From an uncultured Clostridia bacterium (GTDB lineage: Bacteria; Bacillota; Clostridia; Oscillospirales; Acutalibacteraceae), in contig CAMHQC010000006.1 of assembly GCA_946187325.1 (NCBI GenBank), positions 1 to 64,000 on the forward strand: a stretch of DNA of 64,000 bases, written 5' to 3'. Position 1 is the first letter of the stretch, and the number at the start of each line of letters is the position of its first letter. Made by a program: the position numbers and the translations under genes. Under the pieces are notes generated by a model. It saw nothing but the letters and a program-made list of their open reading frames with translations, ran no database searches and was not told the DNA's origin. Shown in pieces: positions 13,567-61,449 of the stretch.

Positions 13567-13586
13567 TTCTAAAATAGAATTAAATG

Positions 13587-13617
13587 AAACTCCGTGAATT
13601 GTTTTCGCGGAGTTTTT
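13587..13617 (+). terminator. Intrinsic terminator
   Basis: AAACTCCGTGAATTGTTTTCGCGGAGTTTTT. Confidence 0.75.
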
Positions 13618-13691
13618 GATTTTTTATTGATTATTTTACACTTTTATATTACAATGTAGGCAATAAAAAATCTACCGAAGGAGATGACTAA

Positions 13692-16040
13692 ATGAAAAAC
13701 GCAAGAAGAATTTTAAGCGTGATTCTCTGCGCTGTTTTAGTGTGTTCCGTGTTTACTGTAAGCGTCGGCGCTAAAAAGAAAGCTAAGAGTTACGTAAAAA
13801 GCGTCAGTGTGAAAAGTAAGGCTGCTATTACTATTCCCGCCGGCAAGAAAACCGCGGTAAAATCCTATAAGGTAACCGTAAAGGTTAAAGGCAATGTTTC
13901 AAAGAAATTTACCGCTAAATCGAGCCAAGCTTCCGTAGCCTCGGTAAAGGTCAGCGGTACAAAGATTAAGGTTACAGCAAAAAAAGCGGGTTCGGCTAAA
14001 ATCACCGTTACCTCTAAGGCAAAGAACGCTTTGGGTAAAAAGCTCAAAAAAACTCTGAAAATCACAGTTAAAAAGGGCTTAATTCCTGCCTCGCTTGACG
14101 AGTATTATTACGATACTCATTTGAGCTATAGTGATTATGTTGAAGGCGCGGATATGTGGGGCGGTCATACAGCCGTAGAAGAGATGATCGTTGACGCGAA
14201 CAGCAAGGCTAAGTATTACGCGGCTACCGCTGATGCTTCCGTCGCGAAAACACTTGACGGCGGAAAAGTTATCGCGTCTTCCAAAGCGGGTTCAACCAAA
14301 GCCGATATTTTCGAGAATTTAAACGGCAAGGTAAGAAAACTCGGCACAATTAAAATATCCGTTAATCGCATTGATATGGCACAAGCCGCCGAAAATGTTC
14401 TTTTGGATTACGAGGATATAGATTTTTCTAATCTTTGGATTAAAGCTAACCTTGGTAAGACGGAGTTGAATCTCAAGAACCTCTATAAGAAAGTATTCGG
14501 CGAGAAAACGAAGTTTGCCGAGAGCGACTATTCTTTCAGCTTTATTCCGGATGACGAAAAAGTAGCTTCCGTAAATAAAGACGGTGTTATCACAGGCGTT
14601 AAAAACGGCTCGACTAATATCGAGACCGGTATAGAATTTTCGGACGGCTCCAAGGACGAGGAGCGTCCCTTTGTTAACGTTTCCGGTTTCGCGATTGAAA
14701 AGGTTGACGGCTACAGTATTGATAATATCAGAGAGTTCGTAGTCGGCTTAGATACTCCCGTAGAGCTTATCGACGGCACAACCACGCCTATGATTAACTT
14801 TGATAACGCCGCTACAACTCCCGCGCTCAAGGCGGTTAAGGACGCTATCGATAAGGAGCTTGAAATGTACGGTTCAATCGGACGCGGCTTCTCCCAGAAA
14901 TCCAACCACTCGACCGATATTTATAATAGTGTAAGGGATAAGGTTATCGATTTTCTCGGAGCCGACCCCGAAACCTATACCTGCTTCTATACTAACAGCA
15001 CAACCGACGGTCTCAATAAGCTCGCTTCCGCTCTTATCACAAGCAAGAACGACATAGTGCTCACCACAAGAATTGAGCACCACGCTAACGACTTGAGCTG
15101 GCGTGAAAGAGTAAATAAAGTGCTTTACGCCGAGGTTGATGAAAAGGGCAGAGTTATTTATGAGGATCTTGAAAAATTATTAAAGAATAATAAGGTGAAA
15201 ATTGTTTCTGTTTCAGCCGCGTCAAACGTTACAGGTTACGTAAACGACGTGCACAGAGTTGCTAAGCTTGCCCATAAGTACGGCGCTCAGCTCGTAGTAG
15301 ACGGCGCTCAGATTGTCGCCCACAGAAAATTCTCTATGCTCGGCGACTTAAACGACAGCACCGATGATATCGACTATATCGCGTTCTCGGCTCATAAGAT
15401 GTATTCGCCTTACGGCGGCGGAGCAGTTGTCGGTATTACAAAGGAGCTTAATAAGCATATGCCGACCTTCTACGGCGGCGGTACAATCAAGGTTGTAGGC
15501 GATTATTGGAGCGTATACAAAAACGCCCCCGCGGCTTATGAGGCGGGATCTCCGAACTATCCCGGCGTTGTCGGCTTAGGTAAGGCGATTGACGTCCTTT
15601 CGACAGTAGGCATGGATAAAATCGAAGCTCACGAAAAGGTTCTCAACCGCAAGATTATCGACGGACTTAAAAAGCTCCCGAACGTCATTCTTTACGGTGA
15701 TACCGAGAATATCGACGACAGGGTAGGTGTTGTTACCTTTAACTTCAGCGATATTAACAGCTACTATATCTCCGAGAAGCTCTCCGAGCTCGGCGGAGTA
15801 GCCACTCGCCGCGGCGCGTTCTGCGCTCATCCTTATGTATGGCGTCTTATGGGAATATCCGATGAGAAAGCGAAAAGCTTTGAAACCTGCACCGACGTAA
15901 ATACTGCCGGAATGGTGCGTGTAAGCTTCGGAATTTATAATAATGAGGAAGATGTTGATAAGTTCTTAGAGCTTATGCCAAAGGTTATGAAAGAAGCTAT
16001 GGAGGTTCAGAAAGTCAGCCCCGCGGAACCCGCGTACTAA
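13692..16040 (+). CDS. Secreted BIG2-like domain protein fused to an aminotransferase class V / SufS-like cysteine desulfurase
   Basis: Signal peptide; PLP lysine 'DYIAFSAHKMYSPYGGG'; 'YEAGSPNYPGVVGLGKAID'; catalytic Cys loop 'ATRRGAFCAHPYVWRLMG'. Confidence 0.88.
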   Translation: MKNARRILSVILCAVLVCSVFTVSVGAKKKAKSYVKSVSVKSKAAITIPAGKKTAVKSYKVTVKVKGNVSKKFTAKSSQASVASVKVSGTKIKVTAKKAGSAKITVTSKAKNALGKKLKKTLKITVKKGLIPASLDEYYYDTHLSYSDYVEGADMWGGHTAVEEMIVDANSKAKYYAATADASVAKTLDGGKVIASSKAGSTKADIFENLNGKVRKLGTIKISVNRIDMAQAAENVLLDYEDIDFSNLWIKANLGKTELNLKNLYKKVFGEKTKFAESDYSFSFIPDDEKVASVNKDGVITGVKNGSTNIETGIEFSDGSKDEERPFVNVSGFAIEKVDGYSIDNIREFVVGLDTPVELIDGTTTPMINFDNAATTPALKAVKDAIDKELEMYGSIGRGFSQKSNHSTDIYNSVRDKVIDFLGADPETYTCFYTNSTTDGLNKLASALITSKNDIVLTTRIEHHANDLSWRERVNKVLYAEVDEKGRVIYEDLEKLLKNNKVKIVSVSAASNVTGYVNDVHRVAKLAHKYGAQLVVDGAQIVAHRKFSMLGDLNDSTDDIDYIAFSAHKMYSPYGGGAVVGITKELNKHMPTFYGGGTIKVVGDYWSVYKNAPAAYEAGSPNYPGVVGLGKAIDVLSTVGMDKIEAHEKVLNRKIIDGLKKLPNVILYGDTENIDDRVGVVTFNFSDINSYYISEKLSELGGVATRRGAFCAHPYVWRLMGISDEKAKSFETCTDVNTAGMVRVSFGIYNNEEDVDKFLELMPKVMKEAMEVQKVSPAEPAY

Positions 16041-16509: not shown

Positions 16510-17259
16510 TTATAAAACTTTCTTTAAAAAGTCCTGAGTACGCTCGTTTTGCGGATTACCGAAAATCTGCTCGGGAGTACCTTCTTCCTTAATTCCGCCG
16601 TCAGCCATAAACAGCACTCTGTCGGAAACCTCTCTCGCGAATCCCATCTCGTGAGTTACGACTACCATAGTCATACCCTCTTTAGCGAGTTCCTTCATAA
16701 CGTCGAGAACTTCGCCTACCATCTCGGGATCGAGCGCCGAGGTCGGTTCGTCGAAAAGCATAATATCGGGGTTCATAGCGAGCGCTCTCGCTATAGCGAC
16801 GCGCTGCTGCTGTCCGCCCGAAAGCTCTCCTGGGTAAGCGGACGCCTTATCCGCTAAGCCTACGCGCTCTAAAAGCTGCATAGCTTTTTTCTCCGCCTCT
16901 AACGGCTTCATTTTTTTTAGCTCAACGGGAGCCATCATAATGTTTTTCTTAACCGTCATATTGGGGAAGAGGTTGAACTGCTGGAATACCATTCCGATAT
17001 TCTCTCTAACCTTATTTATATTGACTTTTTTATCGGTTATATCGTAACCGTCCACAATAATTTTACCCGAAGTAAGCTCCTCAAGCTTATTAAGACATCT
17101 TAAAAATGTACTTTTACCCGAACCCGACGGGCCGATTACACATACAACCTCGCCCTCGTGAATAACGGCGTCTACGCCTTTAAGAACTTCGTTATCTTCG
17201 AAATACTTATGAAGGTTGGTTACAACAATTTTTTCGTCGGATTTATTAGTATTACTCAT
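16510..17259 (-). CDS. Amino acid ABC transporter ATP-binding protein (GlnQ-type)
   Basis: Walker [10 protein letters not shown], signature [15 protein letters not shown], '[19 protein letters not shown]'. Confidence 0.95.
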
Positions 17260-17262
17260 ATG

Positions 17263-17940
17263 TTATTTCTTCCCTTCGTATTTAAGCTTTTTTTCTATAT
17301 GATTCGAAAGCAGCATAAGTAACGAGATTATCGCCAGATACATCAGCGCTACTATCGAATATGTCTCGAAATATACGAAGGTCGAGCCTACGTACTGCTG
17401 GGCTTTGTTTACAACCTCAGCCATACCGATTACCGTGAGGATAGAAGTATCCTTAATAGTAATGATAAACTGGTTTACAAGGGAAGGAACCGAGAACTTG
17501 AACGCCTGCGGTAAGATTACCTTTCTCATTGTTTTTGATTTCGATAATCCGAGCGAACGCGCCGCCTCGCTCTGTCCCTTGGGCACAGCCATAATACCAC
17601 CGCGGTAAATCTCTGCTAAGTAAGCGCCAGCGTTCAGCGACAGGGTAATTATACCCGCTGTAACCGCGTCGAAGCGGAAGCTCGGAATAACTACCTGAAT
17701 CAACTGGGGAACGCCTAAGAATATGATTAACGCTTGTACGAGCATAGGCGTTCCTCGGATAATCCAAATATACACGCCCGCTATAGCGCGCGGTACGACG
17801 TTTTTCGACATCTTCATCAGACAAATAAAAAGTCCGATTATCATTCCTATCGCGATAGAAGCCAGCGAAACAAGCGCGGTCAGCTTTAGACCGTCCAGTA
17901 AAAGCGGCATCGCTTCGTTAAAAACTCTGCTAAAATCCAT
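17263..17940 (-). CDS. Amino acid ABC transporter permease (His/Glu/Gln/Arg family)
   Basis: 'EAARSLGLSKSKTMRKVILPQAFKFSVPSLVNQFIITIKDTSI'. Confidence 0.95.
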   Translation of the reverse strand: MDFSRVFNEAMPLLLDGLKLTALVSLASIAIGMIIGLFICLMKMSKNVVPRAIAGVYIWIIRGTPMLVQALIIFLGVPQLIQVVIPSFRFDAVTAGIITLSLNAGAYLAEIYRGGIMAVPKGQSEAARSLGLSKSKTMRKVILPQAFKFSVPSLVNQFIITIKDTSILTVIGMAEVVNKAQQYVGSTFVYFETYSIVALMYLAIISLLMLLSNHIEKKLKYEGKK

Positions 17941-18031
17941 TATACAACAACTGCCTTACATAAATTCAGCACGATAAGAAACCTATCATGCTGAATAAAA
18001 ATTTTCAACTTTTAAACTTAGCTAAACCGAA

Positions 18032-18820
18032 TTAATAACCGTATTTAGCGAGGATTTTCTTTAACTCGCCGCTCTTTTTGATGTTAGCTAAACCTGCGTC
18101 AAATTTCTCGAGAAGCTCGGAATTCTGACCTTTTTTAACCGCGAAGCCATAGCCTTTTACGTTAAAGGGCTTGTCGTTAACCATCTCGAGTTTAACCTCG
18201 CCTGTCTTAATTGAGTAAGCGATTACCGAGAAATCCTCGAAGCAAGCAATATCTACGCCTGTCTTAACCGCCTGATACATAGAGGGAGAATCCTTATAGT
18301 AGTTGATAGAGAATCCGTACTTATCCTTAACGGACTCAGCGTAATCTTTACCGGCAGTGCCGTTTTTAACAGCTACGGATTTACCCTTAAGGTCGTCCGT
18401 CTTTGTGCCTTTCTTAGCTACGATAACCTGACCGTCCTCGAAGTAGGGCTTAGAGAAATCAAAAGTTTTCTTTCTCTCGTCGTTAATAGTCATACCCGCG
18501 ATCATAGCGTCAGCCTGTCCCGACTGTACAGCGCCCATCGAAGCGTCGAAGCCTTCGTTGTGCATATCGTATTTAAAGCCCTGATCCTTGGCGACAGCTT
18601 CCATAATATCCATATCTACGCCGACATATTTCTTTGTCTTAGCATCGAGATACTCGAAAGGAGCGAACGCGTTATCTGAATAAATAACGTATGTCTTATC
18701 CGCCTTTTTGTCAGCAGCCCCGCTTGCGGTTGAGCCTGAGTTAGAGCTTGAGCAACCCGCGAACACGCAGATTGACGCAACCATTAACGCAACAAGTGTT
18801 ATTGATAAAAATCTTTTCAT
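18032..18820 (-). CDS. Amino acid ABC transporter substrate-binding lipoprotein
   Basis: Lipobox VFAGCSSS; SBP_bac_3 pattern. Confidence 0.95.
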   Translation of the reverse strand: MKRFLSITLVALMVASICVFAGCSSSNSGSTASGAADKKADKTYVIYSDNAFAPFEYLDAKTKKYVGVDMDIMEAVAKDQGFKYDMHNEGFDASMGAVQSGQADAMIAGMTINDERKKTFDFSKPYFEDGQVIVAKKGTKTDDLKGKSVAVKNGTAGKDYAESVKDKYGFSINYYKDSPSMYQAVKTGVDIACFEDFSVIAYSIKTGEVKLEMVNDKPFNVKGYGFAVKKGQNSELLEKFDAGLANIKKSGELKKILAKYGY

Positions 18821-23942: not shown

Positions 23943-26900
23943 ATGAAAAAATCACTCGCGGTTTTATTATCTTCTATTATGATACTCTCGTCGGCTTGCG
24001 TTCCCGCGTCGGCGTTAAGCAGCGGAAAGAAGGATAATAAAACGAAAAATTATGTTGAGGGAGAGGCGATTGTCGTACTCAGAGACAGCGCCGATTTTAA
24101 TTACACAAAAGCCTCGAAAGCGTCCGTACTTTACGGAAACGGCGTAAAGCTTAAGGAGTCCTACTCGTTTAAAAAGAAATCGGGTAATCTCCGTGTAGCT
24201 GTGCTGAAATCAGCTACTCTTTCGACTAAGGAGATTATCTCGGGACTTAAAAAGAACAGCAAGATAAAGTACGCGTTCCCGAACTATAAGAAAAAGGCTT
24301 CCGCTATTACCGAGGATACCTATAGCAAATTCCAGTGGCCTTTAGAGAATGTCGGTCAGAATAACGGTAAAGCGGGAGTGGATATTAAGGCTGACGAGCT
24401 GTGGAGTAAAGCCGGCAAGGCTCAGAACGAAAACGTCGTTGCCGTACTCGATACGGGTATTGATATTAAGAACGATGAGTTTAAGGACGTTCTCTGGAAG
24501 AATCCTTACGGAAATAAGCTTCTCGGCCCGTGCGGTATCGACCTTACGGGTACATACAGCGACTATAAGCCTATAGACGACCACGGACACGGTTCTCACA
24601 TCGCGGGCGTTATAGCCGCTAAATCGGGGAACAAGACGGGTATCAGCGGAGTTAATAAATCCAACGTAAAGATTATGGCGGTTAAAATACTGAACTCTAT
24701 GGGCGGAGGAACCGACGACGGAATTCTCGCCGGCTTTGAGTATGTCCAGAGAGCTATCGAGCTGGGAACTAAAGTAACCGCGGTTAACTGTTCTTTCGGC
24801 GGCGAGGGCGACGAAACCGAGCGCGCCGCTTACGACGAGGTTATAAACGCGCTTGGTGAAAAGGGCGTTATTACCTGTATCGCCTCGGGTAATGAGGAAT
24901 TGAACCTCAACGATTTAGACGACCCCGAATCCGATAATTATTTTTACGGCGAGGTTGTAGTTCCCGCGTGCAGTAAAAGCCCTTACGCTATTACAGTTAC
25001 CGGCGCTAACGAAAACGGTGATATCCCGAGCTACGCTAACGTCGGCGACCATTATGTAGACGTAGCCGCCCCCGGCACAAATATACTCTCGACTGTATCC
25101 TATAATTGCTTTAACCCGTCAATTTATAATTCCTCGGAGATTGAAAAGCTTTGTTCTCATTATCAGAATTATGACGGCGGCTTAAAGAGCGGGGATTTCG
25201 GATACCCCGAGATTATTACTGAATTAAAAAACGCTTCTCCGTATAAAAATTTAAAGGTCGAGTCCTCAGACTCTTACTTTGGACTTTCGGGTAAAAGCGT
25301 TAAAATCACCCCCGAGGGTAAAAAGGCTTCCCAAACCGTTACCTGTGTGTTTGAAGTGCCGTTTACTCTTGATGACGCTGATAAAAACTACAGCGTAAGC
25401 CTTATGATGAAAGCTGACGGATACGCCGAGGGCTATTGTATGGATATTCCCGCCGACAGCGATGTTGACGAAGCTATAGAGGACAGCGAGTCTTATTTTG
25501 ATATTATGGCTTACGGAGACAACGATTGGATCCATATTTACTCCGATGTGGATGTTAAAAAAGATATTTACGATAAAGATAAAGACAGAAAGCTTGTTTT
25601 CGTGTTACGCAGCGACAGCTCGGTTTATATCGACGACCTGGCAGTAAGTAACCAGTCGGCTTGTGAGGACGATTTCGGTAAGTACGATTTCTGTTCGGGA
25701 ACTTCTATGGCGACCTCATTTGTAACGGCTTCCGTAGCGTTAGCCAGAAACGCTTATCCCGAGGCTTCAACCTTAGAGCTCGTTAATATGGTAGCTAACT
25801 CAGGCGAGGTTCATCCCGAGTACGAGGGCAAGGTAAAGCATAATAACTTCCTAACTCTCGACAGTTTGGAAAATATCCCGCCGATGATCAGTAAGGCATC
25901 GTATAACGACGGCGGTAACGTTAAACTCGAGGGCTCGTTTAGGAATGTTGAAAAAGCCTATGTAAACGATAAAGAGGTTGATATTCTGAGTCAGGACGCT
26001 GTGTCCGTAGTAATTCCGGATAATAAGTACAGCACTCATAACGTAAATATAAAGCTTGAAAACTCCGCGGGAAGCGATAGTATAGACGTTTTACTTTCCA
26101 AGAAAAATGCTCTTGCCGAAACTAAAAAGGTTCTCGGTAAGCCCGAGGATACCAGCACAGCGTTATTTGTTCCCGCGGGTTATAAAGCCTACTTAATCGA
26201 CACATATTACGGCTCGGTAGGCGAGCTTAGTACCGTATCCGCTAAGAAGTCCTATACCTATGAGGATGAGAGATACACTATGGGCTTAAACAAGCTGTTT
26301 GACAGCGAGTTTTATCTAGTTCACTCAGCCGTGTATTATAATAATAAGATTTATATAACGGTCAGCAATAATATTGTATCATCCGCTAAGACCCACACTC
26401 TCGGTTATGATTCAATCCTCGCGTGCTTCGACCCGAAAACCGAAAAGACCGTTAAGGTTTGTGACTTGCCCGACGAGTGTCTTTTAGGCTCGAGCCTCGC
26501 GGTTTATAATAACAGCCTGTATCTTATCGGCGGTTATGAAATCAATGAGCTTGAATTTGTGGACAGTGTTTACAAGTTTAACGCTTCTAAAAAAGTCCTC
26601 GCTAAAACCGACACCCCTATGCCGGAGGGCAGAGCTTATACTCAGTTTATTGAGTTGGGCGGTAAGCTTGTCGGCTTCTACGGAAGCATAGAGAGTACCG
26701 AAATGCCGCCGGCTATTGTATTCGACGGTAAAAGCTGGAAAACTTCTTCCGTAAAGCTCGAAAGTACCGACTGTACTACCTACACTTACTCGGGCGGCAA
26801 GACCGTTAAACAGTATGTCGGTAATGTCGGTATTGATAAAAACGGCGTTTTCTGTAACGGCGCTTATGTTTCGGGTTACGGCGATACGTTTACCTACGAC

Positions 26901-27656
26901 GCCGCTAACGATAAGATTATCGAAAACAAGTATTGTTCGAGATTTAATACCACAGACGCGAGACTTATCGGAACTACCGTCCCCGGCGCGTTTATCGGAT
27001 TTACCGTAGTCGATATGGACGCTGATTACGACGACGATGACGATTACGATTTTGATTCGTCGTTCGATATGAGCTCTATAAGCTACCCCGGTTTTGACGA
27101 TTTCAGCGGAGTAAAATCATATATGATTGAGCTCGATAATACTTCCCGTTACTCCGCCTCGCCTAAAACTCCTAAGCTCTCCGCAACCTCGGCGTCGCTA
27201 AAAGCGGGAGCGGTTAAGACCGTCAAGGTGACTAACGGCACAGCTGTCAGCTGGAGTTCTTCGAAGAAGTCGGTCGCAACCGTTAAAAACGGTAAGATTA
27301 CCGCCTTAAAGAAAGGCTCGGCTAAAATTACCGCGACGCTCTCAGACGGCAGTAAGCTTACCTGTAATGTCAAGGTAACCACCAGCCCGGCGATTAAAGC
27401 CGGCGGTAAAAAGTTCAGCTCAAGAACAACCTACTCTCTTAAAAAGGGCGGTTACTTAAAGGTTAAAATTACGGGAAAAGCCGATTCGGTAAATAACGTT
27501 TATAAGACGTCTAATAAAAAAGTCGCTAAGGTTACTTCGTCTAAGTCTGCTAAAACCGTTAAGATTAAAGGTGTTAAAGCCGGTAAAGCCGTTATCACAG
27601 TTAAGGTAAACGGCGTAAGCTTTAAGATAAAAGTTAGGGTAACAGGAGTAATCTGA
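23943..27656 (+). CDS. S8 family subtilisin-like serine protease with Kelch-like and C-terminal BIG2 domains
   Basis: Catalytic D 'VVAVLDTGIDI', H 'DHGHGSHIAGVIA', S 'SGTSMATSFVTAS'; C-terminal Ig-like repeats. Confidence 0.93.
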   Translation: MKKSLAVLLSSIMILSSACVPASALSSGKKDNKTKNYVEGEAIVVLRDSADFNYTKASKASVLYGNGVKLKESYSFKKKSGNLRVAVLKSATLSTKEIISGLKKNSKIKYAFPNYKKKASAITEDTYSKFQWPLENVGQNNGKAGVDIKADELWSKAGKAQNENVVAVLDTGIDIKNDEFKDVLWKNPYGNKLLGPCGIDLTGTYSDYKPIDDHGHGSHIAGVIAAKSGNKTGISGVNKSNVKIMAVKILNSMGGGTDDGILAGFEYVQRAIELGTKVTAVNCSFGGEGDETERAAYDEVINALGEKGVITCIASGNEELNLNDLDDPESDNYFYGEVVVPACSKSPYAITVTGANENGDIPSYANVGDHYVDVAAPGTNILSTVSYNCFNPSIYNSSEIEKLCSHYQNYDGGLKSGDFGYPEIITELKNASPYKNLKVESSDSYFGLSGKSVKITPEGKKASQTVTCVFEVPFTLDDADKNYSVSLMMKADGYAEGYCMDIPADSDVDEAIEDSESYFDIMAYGDNDWIHIYSDVDVKKDIYDKDKDRKLVFVLRSDSSVYIDDLAVSNQSACEDDFGKYDFCSGTSMATSFVTASVALARNAYPEASTLELVNMVANSGEVHPEYEGKVKHNNFLTLDSLENIPPMISKASYNDGGNVKLEGSFRNVEKAYVNDKEVDILSQDAVSVVIPDNKYSTHNVNIKLENSAGSDSIDVLLSKKNALAETKKVLGKPEDTSTALFVPAGYKAYLIDTYYGSVGELSTVSAKKSYTYEDERYTMGLNKLFDSEFYLVHSAVYYNNKIYITVSNNIVSSAKTHTLGYDSILACFDPKTEKTVKVCDLPDECLLGSSLAVYNNSLYLIGGYEINELEFVDSVYKFNASKKVLAKTDTPMPEGRAYTQFIELGGKLVGFYGSIESTEMPPAIVFDGKSWKTSSVKLESTDCTTYTYSGGKTVKQYVGNVGIDKNGVFCNGAYVSGYGDTFTYDAANDKIIENKYCSRFNTTDARLIGTTVPGAFIGFTVVDMDADYDDDDDYDFDSSFDMSSISYPGFDDFSGVKSYMIELDNTSRYSASPKTPKLSATSASLKAGAVKTVKVTNGTAVSWSSSKKSVATVKNGKITALKKGSAKITATLSDGSKLTCNVKVTTSPAIKAGGKKFSSRTTYSLKKGGYLKVKITGKADSVNNVYKTSNKKVAKVTSSKSAKTVKIKGVKAGKAVITVKVNGVSFKIKVRVTGVI

Positions 27657-27963: not shown

Positions 27964-28054
27964 TGTATTAGAATTAAAAAAGTAATTGTATATATCCTTT
28001 ATTTGTGGTATAATTTAGAAGTTGAAAAACTTTAGAAAGGCTAAGGTAATCATT

Positions 28055-29338
28055 ATGAGCAATTTTAAAAATGGTACAAAGTGCGTACAGGCGGGCTATA
28101 CTCCCAAAACAGGCGAGCCGAGAGTTCTGCCGATTATCCAGAGTACGACTTTTAAATACGATACGAGCGAGGCTATGGGCGAGCTTTTTGATTTACAGAA
28201 AAGCGGTTACTTCTATACACGCCTTGCTAATCCTACCGCCGACTGTGTAGCAAAAAAGCTGTGCGAGCTTGAGGGCGGTTCAGCGGGAATGTTACTTTCA
28301 TCCGGTCAGGCGGCCAACTTCTTCGCTGTGTTTAATATAGCCTCCGCAGGCGACCATATTGTATCCAGCGCGGCGATTTACGGAGGAACATTTAACCTGT
28401 TCTCAGTTACTATGAAAAAAATGGGAATCGAGTTTACCTTTGTCGATCCCGATTGCAGCGAGGAAGAGTTAAGAGCGGCGTTTAAACCTAATACAAAGGC
28501 GCTGTTCGGCGAGACTATCGCTAACCCCGCTTTAGCGGTTTTAGATATCGAGATGTTCGCCAAAGTAGCTCACGAAAACGGAGTTCCGCTTATTATAGAT
28601 AATACTTTCGCTACTCCGGTAAACTGTCGTCCGTTTGAATGGGGAGCTGATATCGTAACCCATTCTACCACCAAGTATCTTGACGGACACGCTACCTCCG
28701 TAGGCGGAGCGATTGTAGACAGCGGTAATTTTAATTGGATGGATTACGCTGATAAATTCCCGGGACTCACTACTCCCGACGAAAGCTATCACGGAATCGT
28801 TTACTGCGAGCAGTTCGGTATAGGCGGAGCGTATATTACTAAATGCGTAGCCCAGCTTATGCGTGACTTCGGAAGCTCTCCCTCCGCGTTTAACGCTTTC
28901 CTGCTCAACGTCGGTATGGAAACTCTCCACGTTCGTATGCCAAAGCACTGCGCTAACGCTCAGGCTGTTGCCGAGTATTTAAACGCTCACGAAAAGGTAG
29001 CCTGGGTTCAATACTGCGGACTTAAAGGCGATAAATACTACGAGCGCGGTCAGAAATATCTCCCCAACGGCTCCTGCGGAGTTCTTTCGTTCGGAGTTAA
29101 AGGCGGTAGAAAAGCTGCCGAGGAGTTTATGAAGAACCTTAAACTCTGCGCTATCGTTACTCACGTTGCCGACGCGAGAACTTCTATTCTTCATCCCGCG
29201 AGCTCAACCCACCGCCAGATGAGCGATGAGGAGCTTTTAGCGGGCGGCGTTGCTCCTGATATGATGCGTTTGAGCGTAGGTATCGAGGATGTAGAGGATA
29301 TTATCGCCGATATCGAAAACGCGCTTAAATCAATCTAA
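28055..29338 (+). CDS. O-acetylhomoserine aminocarboxypropyltransferase / PLP Cys-Met metabolism enzyme
   Basis: 'PIIQSTTFKYDTSEAMGELFDL', 'YTRLANPTADCVAKKLCELEGG', PLP Lys 'THSTTKYLDGHATSVGG'. Confidence 0.93.
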   Translation: MSNFKNGTKCVQAGYTPKTGEPRVLPIIQSTTFKYDTSEAMGELFDLQKSGYFYTRLANPTADCVAKKLCELEGGSAGMLLSSGQAANFFAVFNIASAGDHIVSSAAIYGGTFNLFSVTMKKMGIEFTFVDPDCSEEELRAAFKPNTKALFGETIANPALAVLDIEMFAKVAHENGVPLIIDNTFATPVNCRPFEWGADIVTHSTTKYLDGHATSVGGAIVDSGNFNWMDYADKFPGLTTPDESYHGIVYCEQFGIGGAYITKCVAQLMRDFGSSPSAFNAFLLNVGMETLHVRMPKHCANAQAVAEYLNAHEKVAWVQYCGLKGDKYYERGQKYLPNGSCGVLSFGVKGGRKAAEEFMKNLKLCAIVTHVADARTSILHPASSTHRQMSDEELLAGGVAPDMMRLSVGIEDVEDIIADIENALKSI

Positions 29339-31781: not shown

Positions 31782-33910
31782 TTATTTTACTTTAACCTTA
31801 ACAGTCTTGACAACGGACTTTGATTTGTAATTTGCGTTACCATTTGCCTTTACCGTTACTTTGATGGTGTATTTACCCTTCTTGGCTTTCTTCCATTTCT
31901 TGATTTTAAGTACGCCCTTCTTGGAGATCGTGAGATACTTTTTGATTGTCTTTTTGGCGGACTTGATTTTAAAGCTGAGCTTACCCTGCGCCTTTTTAAC
32001 AGTAAATGTCGCGGCTTTTTGGGCAGCCTTCTTAACCTTTTTGAGCTTGACCGTCTTAGTCTTTGAAGTCACTTTGATCGGGTTGGCTTTCTTTTTGGTG
32101 ACGGTTTTAGCGGGTTCATCCTTTGCGGGCTCGTCCGCGGGCTTTACGCCGTAGAACTCGTCGATCATTTTGCTGTAAGCTTCTACATCATACAAGCCTG
32201 AATAGTCGATACCGCTTCCATCGCTTGCCTGCTTAGTCAGGTCATAATCGAGCTCGGCGCCGTTGTCAACATCCTTGTTATCCTTGGTGATGAACTTATT
32301 ATAACTTGACAGCGTGTAGAAGAACGTCTCGGGAGTGTACGCGATAAACAGTGAGCAGGCTCCGCCTCCGCTTCTTTCGCCGAGGATCGGGAAGCCCTCG
32401 TCCTTCGCGATACAGGGAAGCAGATTTCCGCAGGAATACGAGATGTTGGATGTGATAAAGGCGTATTCAAAATCATAATATACGCTCTTGTCGAGGTCGT
32501 TGATCTCTCCGTCTAAATTCATATCAACTTCGTTATCCATTCTTGTGATGTTTCCTGTAAGCGTCTGAATTTTTCTGTATGCAACAACATTGCTGTCCTT
32601 GTTTTTATTGGTGATCATAGCCATGATATACATAACGACCGCCGCGTTACCGCCGCTGTTGCAGGAAATATCTATAACAAAACGCTTAATGCCCTTTTCC
32701 TTAGCGTAGTCAAGAGACCATTTAAAATTATAAACCGCCTCGTTAACAAACGAATCAAATGCGAAAACAGCTGTATCTCCCGTAACATAAAGCTTTGATG
32801 CCGACTTGTCATCCCACGACTTTACAAGATCATAATCTTTGTATTTATCGCTTCTTAATTCCGACATAGCCCTGCTTTTCTGACTTGAGGCGAGAGTGCT
32901 CATCGCATAGTTTGCCGCAGTTCTGTCACGGAAATCCTCTGACTCGGCAAGTCTGCCAAGCTCATTATATACAGCGGTCCCGGGGGTAATAAACGATAAT
33001 ACCGCAGGGTAGTTTACCGCCGTATGACCTCCGTCGGAGAATACTTTTCCTAGATAAGCAGTTCCGAGAACATAATCAACCATATTTTCCGATAGAAGCA
33101 ATTCTTTTGCTCTACGGGTATCGTCGTTGTACTCGTCCAGCGCTTCGTCAAAGCTTTTTTCTTCGAGCATCGACGCGATTTCAGCCTGAGCGGGTCTGCC
33201 GTAAAGCTTATCAACCGCGAAGCACAGGTCGTTATAAGCCAACTCGACCAGATCCTTGCTGCGCTTGAGAGTATCATAAACCTTAGTGTTTTTGAAGTAA
33301 CAGTCTCTCATTACTATATCGGAGCTATGGATAAAATAAACGTTGTCTTCGCAATACACCGCTGTATTATAGGTCGCGCCGAAAAGGAGTCCGATTGTTG
33401 ACACAGGGAAATAGGTCTTTCCGTCGTACTCGATAATATCGATTTTATAAGACGAAAAGTCAAGATCGAGACCTTTTATTTCTCCCTCGGTGACAGACTC
33501 GTGCTCCTTAATGTAATCCACGTCCAGTTCGGTGCCCTCCGATTTTTCCTTAGCCGCGATAAAGTCCTCGAAATTATCGAAGTGAAGCGTATCCTTTTGA
33601 GCGTCGATTACCATTGTTCCATTAGGATTGGTAACCGTGTAAGTGCCGTCCGCGTTCTTAACCTCGGTCGGCTCGTCAACATAGATATGCTTCAGATAAT
33701 CAACGGTAGATATAAACGCCATATCAGGCATACTGCTTTTGAAAACGCACTTAAGCGTTTCGGTATTCTCCATATTGAAGATATACGCCGTGGTGTCTTT
33801 AGCGCTGATTTCGTCCTCAGCCGCGGACGCGGTCATCGGCAGAGCCGCGCTGATAAGGATCAAAAGCGCAAGAACCACACTGATTGGTGATAATACTTTT
33901 AACCTCCGTA
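31782..33910 (-). CDS. S41 peptidase-like secreted protein with C-terminal Lys-rich Ig-like domain; start codon unclear
   Basis: 'KRFVIDISCNSGGNAAVVMYIMAMI', 'FITSNISYSCGNLLPCIAKDEGFPILGERSGGGA'; signal peptide-like SVVLALLILISAALPMTASAA. Confidence 0.65.
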
Positions 33911-33964
33911 TAAAAATAAACGGCGTTACAGCATTCGATAGGTGCAGTAACGCCGTAAAATGTT

Positions 33965-34630
33965 TTAGTTTTCTTTGAGCATCTTTTTGGCTTTGCCGAG
34001 ATAGTAAATCTGGAAAATGTAGAGGAATACGGTAAAGCAAAGCGATAAGCCCGATAACCAGTTGACGATAGAGCCGAAAACTGTCGCTTCGGCGCCCCAA
34101 CGGCCAATGAAATTCAGAACAAATGTCAAAATGTATAAGATAACCAGAGTCGTGAGTATATCTTTGCCGCGCTTAACCATATCTTGTCTGCCGCATTTTA
34201 CAGACAGAGCCATCAGACCTAAGATAAGGAAAATAGTCGCGAGCATATTGCAAATATTTCCGGCAACCGTCAGAATAGTGTAGAGCCATCCAAAGAAACC
34301 TGTCTGGTTTGCGAAGAAAGACGCCGCAACGGTAAATACAATACTGAAAATCACACATAAAATAGCTTTCTTAAAGTCGGCTTCGTCCTTGCCCGCCTGA
34401 AAATATCCGACTATACTCATAATTCCCGCAACGGCAATTACAATACCCGCAACAAGCGTCAAAGCGCCCGTAACGATAAAAAGAGTTTTTGAAGCGCCTT
34501 GATCGACGTTTCCCGATACCGCGATAAAGCTCAGTATCATACCGACTCCGCCAAGCAGAGCGGCGATCAATGAGATGATTTCGGCGTTAAAAATCTTGCT
34601 AACGCCTTTTGCTGCGTTTGGAAATTTCAT
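33965..34630 (-). CDS. Multi-TM membrane protein, paralogue of 61606-62340
   Basis: RBS AAGGAGAG; MKFPNAAKGVSKIFNAEIISLIAALL compared with MEFPNTARGLKKIFAGEIIGLISVALL. Confidence 0.7.
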   Translation of the reverse strand: MKFPNAAKGVSKIFNAEIISLIAALLGGVGMILSFIAVSGNVDQGASKTLFIVTGALTLVAGIVIAVAGIMSIVGYFQAGKDEADFKKAILCVIFSIVFTVAASFFANQTGFFGWLYTILTVAGNICNMLATIFLILGLMALSVKCGRQDMVKRGKDILTTLVILYILTFVLNFIGRWGAEATVFGSIVNWLSGLSLCFTVFLYIFQIYYLGKAKKMLKEN

Positions 34631-60324: not shown

Positions 60325-61449
60325 ATGGAAAAGAAAAAAAGCGCGGCTCCTTGGAAGATTGCGTCAGTAGTTTTAGCTGTAGCTTTAATCGCTGTATCAT
60401 GCACATGGGCGTTTACCGCTAATAACAAAGCTCCCGTGACTTCCAGCATTTTTGCGGCCGACACAGCTAAGAAGGACAGCGCTGATGTGTTATCGCTCTG
60501 GACTAAGGGCGCTAAGCTTAAATCTCAGCTTACCGACTATATGAAGACTATTACCGATAAAAGCTCTTCGGATTTTATTCCCGTAGAGAGCAGAATCGCT
60601 GTTTTCGATATGGACGGTACACTTTGCTGTGAAACCGACCCGGGGTACTTCGACCACAAGCTCCTTTACCATCGAGTAATGGAAGATCCCGATTATAAGG
60701 ACAAGGCGAGCGCCGAAGAGAAAGCAACCGCTAAGGAAATCGAAAAGTATTTCGAAACAGGTGAATATCCCGAGGGTATGGACTTAAAGCATGGTAAAGC
60801 TGTCGCTACCGCGTTTAAGGGTATGACCTTAAAGCAGTTTGACGACTATGTAAAAGCTTACAGAGATACCGCTATGGAGAGTTATTCCAATATGACTAAC
60901 GGTCAGGCGTTCTATAAGCCGATGCTCCAGGTTATCGACTATTTACAGGCCAACGACTTTAAAGTTTATATAGTAAGCGGTACAGATCGTCTTATTACAC
61001 GCGGACTCGTAGATGGAGCGATTGACATTCCTTTAGCCCAGATGATCGGCTCTGACGAAAGCTTAGTCGCGAGCAACCAGGGCGGCAAGGACGGACTCGA
61101 ATATACATTCGAGAAAAACGATAAGGTTATTACAGGCGGTAAGTTCCTTATTAAGAACTTAAAGATGAACAAGGTAAGCGTTATCGAGCAGGAAATCGGA
61201 CAGCAGCCCGTACTTTCTTTCGGAAACAGCTCGGGCGACGGCGCTATGGCTAACTTCGTTATTAACAATAACAAGTATAAGAGCGCGGCGTTTATGCTCT
61301 GCTGCGACGATACCGAGAGAGAAAACGGTAACGTTAAAAAAGCCGATAAGATGTACAAACTCTGTAAAGAGAACGGTTGGACAGCAGTATCTATGAAGAA
61401 CGACTGGACTACTATCTACGGCGATAATGTTACTTATAATAAAAAGTAA
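60325..61449 (+). CDS. Membrane-anchored HAD superfamily phosphatase
   Basis: N-terminal TM; 'IAVFDMDGTLCCETDPG', 'KVYIVSGTDRLITRGLV', 'PVLSFGNSSGDGAM'. Confidence 0.88.
   Translation: MEKKKSAAPWKIASVVLAVALIAVSCTWAFTANNKAPVTSSIFAADTAKKDSADVLSLWTKGAKLKSQLTDYMKTITDKSSSDFIPVESRIAVFDMDGTLCCETDPGYFDHKLLYHRVMEDPDYKDKASAEEKATAKEIEKYFETGEYPEGMDLKHGKAVATAFKGMTLKQFDDYVKAYRDTAMESYSNMTNGQAFYKPMLQVIDYLQANDFKVYIVSGTDRLITRGLVDGAIDIPLAQMIGSDESLVASNQGGKDGLEYTFEKNDKVITGGKFLIKNLKMNKVSVIEQEIGQQPVLSFGNSSGDGAMANFVINNNKYKSAAFMLCCDDTERENGNVKKADKMYKLCKENGWTAVSMKNDWTTIYGDNVTYNKK

Follow-up and report, generated by a model that had tools for sequence, protein, structure and literature searches.

The window (the whole 64,000-nucleotide stretch of DNA from an uncultured Clostridia bacterium that was analysed here) contains a gene predicted to encode an exported protein in which Ig-like domains are fused to a class V PLP enzyme. 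At the level of sequence, comparison with its relatives suggests that this protein belongs to a clade of exported PLP enzymes with a cysteine desulfurase-type active site, whose chemistry would be used outside the cell. As to the reaction itself, we lean towards a dedicated extracellular, partner-independent cysteine desulfurase-type enzyme that would release alanine together with persulfide or sulfide.

Gene and N-terminal modules

The open reading frame starts with ATG, contains no internal stops, and has a ribosome-binding site (AAGGAGATG) 5' of the start (Table 1). A hairpin further upstream, detected in a scan whose overall count was not above that of shuffled sequences, would end the preceding gene and weakly suggests that the enzyme gene probably has a transcript of its own.

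Table 1. Features of the exported enzyme gene and its upstream region (positions in the window)
Feature	Position	Strand	Basis and remarks
Intrinsic-terminator-like hairpin of upstream gene	13586..13616	+	13 bp stem and T run; weak
Possible sigma-70 promoter, TTGATT-17-TACAAT	13627..13655	+	consensus match only; weak
Whole gene, exported Ig-like and class V PLP enzyme, 782 aa	13692..16040	+	ORF, Pfam
Predicted Sec-type signal peptide, residues 1-27, cleavage VGA/KKK	13692..13772	+	sequence, rule-based check
Lys-rich Big_2-like cassette, residues 28-130	13773..14081	+	Pfam, sequence
Two further Ig-like domains, residues 131-345	14082..14726	+	predicted structure; fast-evolving or replaced
Class V (fold type I) PLP domain, type II cysteine desulfurase-like	14751..16037	+	Pfam, predicted structure
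Cys431, invariant in exported clade, nearly absent from cytoplasmic sisters	14982..14984	+	alignment
His463, equivalent to PLP-stacking His121 of B. subtilis SufS; invariant	15078..15080	+	alignment
Lys569, equivalent to Schiff-base Lys224 of B. subtilis SufS; invariant	15396..15398	+	alignment
Cys711, equivalent to catalytic Cys361 of B. subtilis SufS, in RGAFCAHPY; invariant	15822..15824	+	alignment
Cys733, in segment inserted after catalytic loop; invariant in exported clade, absent from sisters and SufS compared	15888..15890	+	alignment
Arg743, equivalent to substrate-carboxylate Arg376 of B. subtilis SufS; invariant	15918..15920	+	alignment

The N-terminus of the protein (MKNARRILSVILCAVLVCSVFTVSVGA, followed by KKK after the predicted cut) could be divided into n, h and c regions (MKNARR, ILSVILCAVLVCSVFTV and SVGA, respectively) with a V-G-A cleavage site, which is the pattern of a Sec signal under the rule-based prediction. 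A lipoprotein identity for the window protein itself was rejected, as it has no lipobox and neither Cys13 nor Cys18 fits one. The adjoining cassette contains 31 Lys and no Asp or Glu, and its residues 35-110 match Big_2 (PF02368) with 35.3 bits (gathering cut-off 22.8). In the source genome, an S41 peptidase and two uncharacterized proteins also begin with this signal and cassette, and a related genome (G018) encodes a histidine-acid-phosphatase-like protein that does so too. It is possible that this Lys-rich cassette binds anionic wall polymers. When residues 131-345 were folded alone, the model reached pLDDT 94 and its best single-domain matches were Ig-like surface proteins with modest Z scores of 8 to 10, which adds two Ig-like domains to Big_2 and gives three in all, a refinement of the signal peptide and BIG2-like domain that the sequence-only reading had proposed and that were both recovered here.

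Catalytic domain and active site

Residues 368-758 match Aminotran_5 (PF00266) with an E-value of 1.3e-81 (274.9 bits, cut-off 21.5), and the AlphaFold model of all 782 residues has a mean pLDDT of 93.6. B. subtilis SufS is both the best sequence match in the PDB (2.2e-59) and the closest solved relative, and the catalytic part of the predicted model superposes on it over 397 residues (Z 47.4, rmsd 1.6 Å), indicating a complete class V fold. In addition to the equivalences listed in Table 1, R706, N512, D537 and Q540 correspond to R356, N173, D198 and Q201 of B. subtilis SufS in the alignment; K569, C711, H463, R706, R743, N512, D537 and Q540 were invariant in 54 of 54 aligned sequences, including four SufS. 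The codons previously assigned to the PLP lysine and the catalytic cysteine are exactly those of K569 and C711, and the earlier reading of the sequence as coding for an intact PLP enzyme that combines a desulfurase-type active site with an export signal stands.

The motif around the catalytic Cys, refined here from AFCAHPY to RGAFCAHPY (RRGAFCAHPY in its longest form), differs from the RxGHHCxxP of SufS, in which HHC was present in all rows compared, and, relative to SufS, ~20 residues are inserted after the catalytic Cys, ahead of the substrate Arg. The mature exported proteins have three invariant cysteines (C431, C711 and C733). Outside the exported clade, C733 was present in none of the rows (cytoplasmic sisters and SufS) and C431 in one, and it is conceivable that C431 and C733 could form a disulfide or that C733 could act as an internal sulfur acceptor. 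The SufU-contacting His342 of SufS, which is Tyr345 in E. coli, marks the SufU/SufE docking position (PMC11408855). This position is Tyr691 in the window protein and Y, F, M, H, K, T or D among its relatives in the alignment; Tyr691 by itself could fit a SufE-type partner.

The fold and the catalytic Lys and Cys, stacking His and substrate arginines are those of SufS, so that the SufS-like class V fold suggested earlier was upheld in the predicted structure; identity with SufS itself was not. The SufS model TIGR01979 gave 281.2 bits against a curated cut-off of 475.1, the PvdN model NF051467 gave 27 against 650, and no curated NCBIfam cut-off was reached by the window protein in the profile comparison. 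SufS is cytoplasmic and encoded with Suf genes, whereas the window protein has a predicted signal peptide, lacks the RxGHHCxxP motif, and has the SUFBD gene of its genome on another contig (C7). Judged by profiles and phylogeny, the window protein is not SufS proper and is a member of a separate FCAHPY-type clade.

Distribution and predicted export across the clade

Among 85,000 species genomes scanned, 26 loci were recovered at 64-97% identity. Nearly all of them are in records labelled Ruminococcus-like or Clostridia, many of which bear sample names from the rumen; the others are in Ruminococcaceae bacterium P7 (record FMUA01000020, a dockerin form; Oscillospiraceae; an isolate-style name) and in one member each of Lachnospiraceae, Eubacterium and Coriobacteriia. 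In the genus of the window the distribution is patchy (8 of 36 genomes). A second search of 391 genomes of the same class added one exported member (L089) and ~50 relatives at roughly 39-47% identity, in which the signal was absent from all those read, and the genus genomes contributed a cytoplasmic relative at 52% identity (L087). In the phylogenetic tree, the exported proteins formed one clade (support 100/99) inside a cytoplasmic family of Clostridia and apart from SufS, which points to a single origin of the exported state.

Export was assessed in a 54-row alignment by our own sequence-based rule, which required a positively charged N-terminus followed by a hydrophobic core and either a lipobox or a cleavage site. 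An export signal was found in all 27 exported-clade rows (complete sequences, at least about 64% identity) and in none of the 27 outgroup rows, and the 12-residue mean hydropathy was 1.9-3.25 in the former versus 0.78 at best in the latter. Homologues lacking the signal, which the sequence-only reading had named as one observation that would speak against it, were thus confined to the more distant cytoplasmic sisters and SufS. The attached modules vary considerably: 12 of the 27 rows have the signal with the Lys-rich Big_2-like cassette, two have the signal with Ig-like domains only (L058 and L059), eight have the signal with a dockerin (PF00404 confirmed by Pfam in L042 and L060, the others recognized by a visible GDVDGDG...IQ motif), L061, L062, L063 and L089 are of the lipobox form, and L064 has a Tat-like signal with lipobox. 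The lipoprotein forms branch early and one dockerin group is nested among the Big_2 forms, so that attachment modules have been swapped more than once while export and the active site were retained. The Tat-like lipoprotein of L064 belongs to the Coriobacteriia locus, whose GC content is 60%, suggesting transfer between phyla.

Selection and a probably replaced middle segment

The catalytic domain is under purifying selection, with dN/dS of 0.05-0.07 in seven pairs, six of which give rough ratios because dS is above 1 and near saturation; the closest pair (dS 0.40) gave 0.047. Together with the retention of the fusion in relatives, this indicates that the fusion is no chance event. The Ig-like middle is the fastest evolving part (mean identity 35% versus 84% for the catalytic domain). 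Compared with the nearest relative (L039), residues 131-345 share 43% amino acid identity and the catalytic domain 97%; at the nucleotide level, identities of 0.89 and 0.92 for the cassette and the catalytic part, respectively, contrast with 0.52 for residues 140-335 (14109-14696), with breaks near residues 135 and 340. It is probable that residues 140-335 are a segment replaced by recombination or a hypervariable surface segment.

Genomic context

A role of the exported enzyme in SufS/Fe-S housekeeping was rejected, because the gene is patchy and the source genome has, elsewhere, its own NifS/IscS-like gene followed by NifU_N, as well as the SUFBD gene. Among the 26 exported loci compared, neither a general neighbour nor an operon with sulfur genes was found. 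The adjacent amino-acid ABC transporter (16510-18820) was dismissed as a partner: it is also near the gene in L039 and not beside most other orthologues. In 4 of 20 contexts (L124, L129, L131 and L136), the cytoplasmic sister gene is immediately followed by one for a DsrE_2 (PF13686) sulfurtransferase, likely forming a sulfur-transfer pair, which offers indirect support for the desulfurase reaction.

Several other genes were observed in the window and at related loci. An exported HAD phosphatase, in some cases with a lipobox, is encoded in the window (60325-61449) and in L041 (3761-4885), L049 (4342-5460), L053 (3715-4905) and L085 (12729-13862). Its gene adjoins that of the exported enzyme, upstream or downstream, in L041, L049, L053, G018 and apparently G007. 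Within the genus, the phosphatase was present in all 8 genomes that have the desulfurase and in 6 of the 28 that lack it (Fisher p 1e-4, kinship ignored); its closest solved structure by sequence is 4ovy. The window is also rich in exported peptidases, such as a secreted subtilisin-like protease with an Ig-like tail (23943-27656) and an S41-like peptidase (31782-34100), and encodes a PLP enzyme of Cys/Met metabolism that is MetY-like by sequence (28022-29338), a possible sulfide consumer.

Proposed reaction and alternatives

In the favoured model, the protein would be exported by Sec and would pick up PLP outside the membrane during folding, while the basic Ig-like cassette, or a dockerin or lipid anchor in relatives, would hold it at the cell envelope. 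PLP on Lys569 would then form an aldimine with free extracellular L-cysteine, the carboxylate being held by Arg743; the sulfur would pass to Cys711, forming a persulfide, with release of alanine. The sulfur might be freed as H2S or polysulfide by small thiols or by the sulfide of the strongly reducing rumen, and could then be assimilated. A SufU/SufE partner would seemingly not be needed, a view based on the variability of the SufU-contacting position in relatives. More tentatively, the enzyme might be a self-sufficient, sulfur-releasing extracellular enzyme in which Cys733 and/or Cys431 form a built-in second cysteine, for instance an internal persulfide acceptor replacing SufU/SufE, and which in some species would be attached by dockerin to cellulosome-like complexes.

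Several points count against a desulfurase reaction: class V enzymes of the same fold also catalyze beta-elimination, epimerisation and decarboxylation, a Sec-exported apoenzyme would need some way of acquiring PLP, and a conserved operon with sulfur genes is lacking. In addition, the substrate may differ from that of SufS because the residues beside Cys711 have changed from HHC to AFC. This replacement, the insertion after the catalytic Cys, and the failure to reach any curated cysteine desulfurase cut-off would all suit an exported PLP enzyme with another substrate or reaction (tailoring, beta-lyase or aminotransferase-like, acting on a peptide or a derivative of an amino acid), for which PvdN of the Pseudomonas periplasm sets a precedent, being a class V enzyme that is exported and whose chemistry is not that of a desulfurase. 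We nevertheless regard such a reaction as rather unlikely, since the alignment, SufS included, shows no exception at the catalytic Cys or at either substrate arginine, residues that class V enzymes other than desulfurases are not bound to retain, and the PvdN model itself matches so poorly.

The folds of E. coli SufS/CsdB structures labelled as selenocysteine lyase are also close, which raises the idea of an extracellular selenocysteine lyase or cysteine sulfinate desulfinase preferring Se or sulfinate substrates. These reactions do not strictly need the catalytic Cys, which is retained here, and free selenocysteine is rare outside cells, making this activity improbable. The variable Ig-like part, typical of surface proteins, might be taken to mean that, behind a genuine signal peptide and genuine Ig-like domains, the enzyme part is an inactive relic serving as a surface domain; however, conservation is highest in the catalytic domain, its catalytic residues are invariant, and its dN/dS is about 0.05, so that a relic seems very improbable. 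Finally, as the relatives are mostly metagenome assemblies, a mis-assembly or frameshift might have fused a surface protein to a cytoplasmic desulfurase, an artefact with hardly any probability left and refuted by independent recurrence: the same architecture is present in many independent assemblies, including that of Ruminococcaceae bacterium P7, and in differing architectural forms.

Significance and comparison with known systems

Cysteine desulfurases are regarded as internal enzymes, from which the persulfide is handed on under protection. An extracellular, partner-free desulfurase, if real, would provide rumen bacteria with a new route to sulfide or persulfide from the amino acids of digesta, would bear on rumen sulfide, redox potential and the sulfur supply of neighbours, and would pose the problem of how a PLP enzyme that leaves the cell unfolded acquires its cofactor on the outside. 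In the open-access library that was searched, no earlier report was found of a secreted cysteine desulfurase or of one with a dockerin; both the fold and the chemistry that the enzyme probably performs are familiar, and it is the exported, modularly anchored clade that is absent from the literature searched.

Among known systems, B. subtilis SufS (5j8q/5xt5) shares the fold, the Schiff-base Lys, the catalytic Cys, the stacking His and both substrate arginines; unlike SufS, the window protein is predicted to be exported, is fused to Ig-like domains, and has RGAFCAHPY, the insertion with Cys733, and a docking residue that is not conserved. The cytoplasmic FCAHPY/GCFCAHPY family of Clostridia (L087 and L090-L117; no curated name) is nearest on the tree and shares the subfamily and catalytic motif at 39-52% identity, but is devoid of the signal peptide and Cys733, and its position 709 is mostly Cys (GCFC), whereas the exported clade has Ala. 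PvdN of the pseudomonad periplasm is likewise a class V PLP enzyme at work outside the cytoplasm, although it is exported by Tat and serves pyoverdine tailoring in a Gram-negative periplasm. The cysteine desulfurase cargo of family 2A encapsulins also places a SufS-like domain behind an N-terminal targeting extension, which directs it to a nanocompartment; the window protein scored 221 bits, far under the cut-off of 800, and is predicted to be exported rather than nanocompartment-bound.
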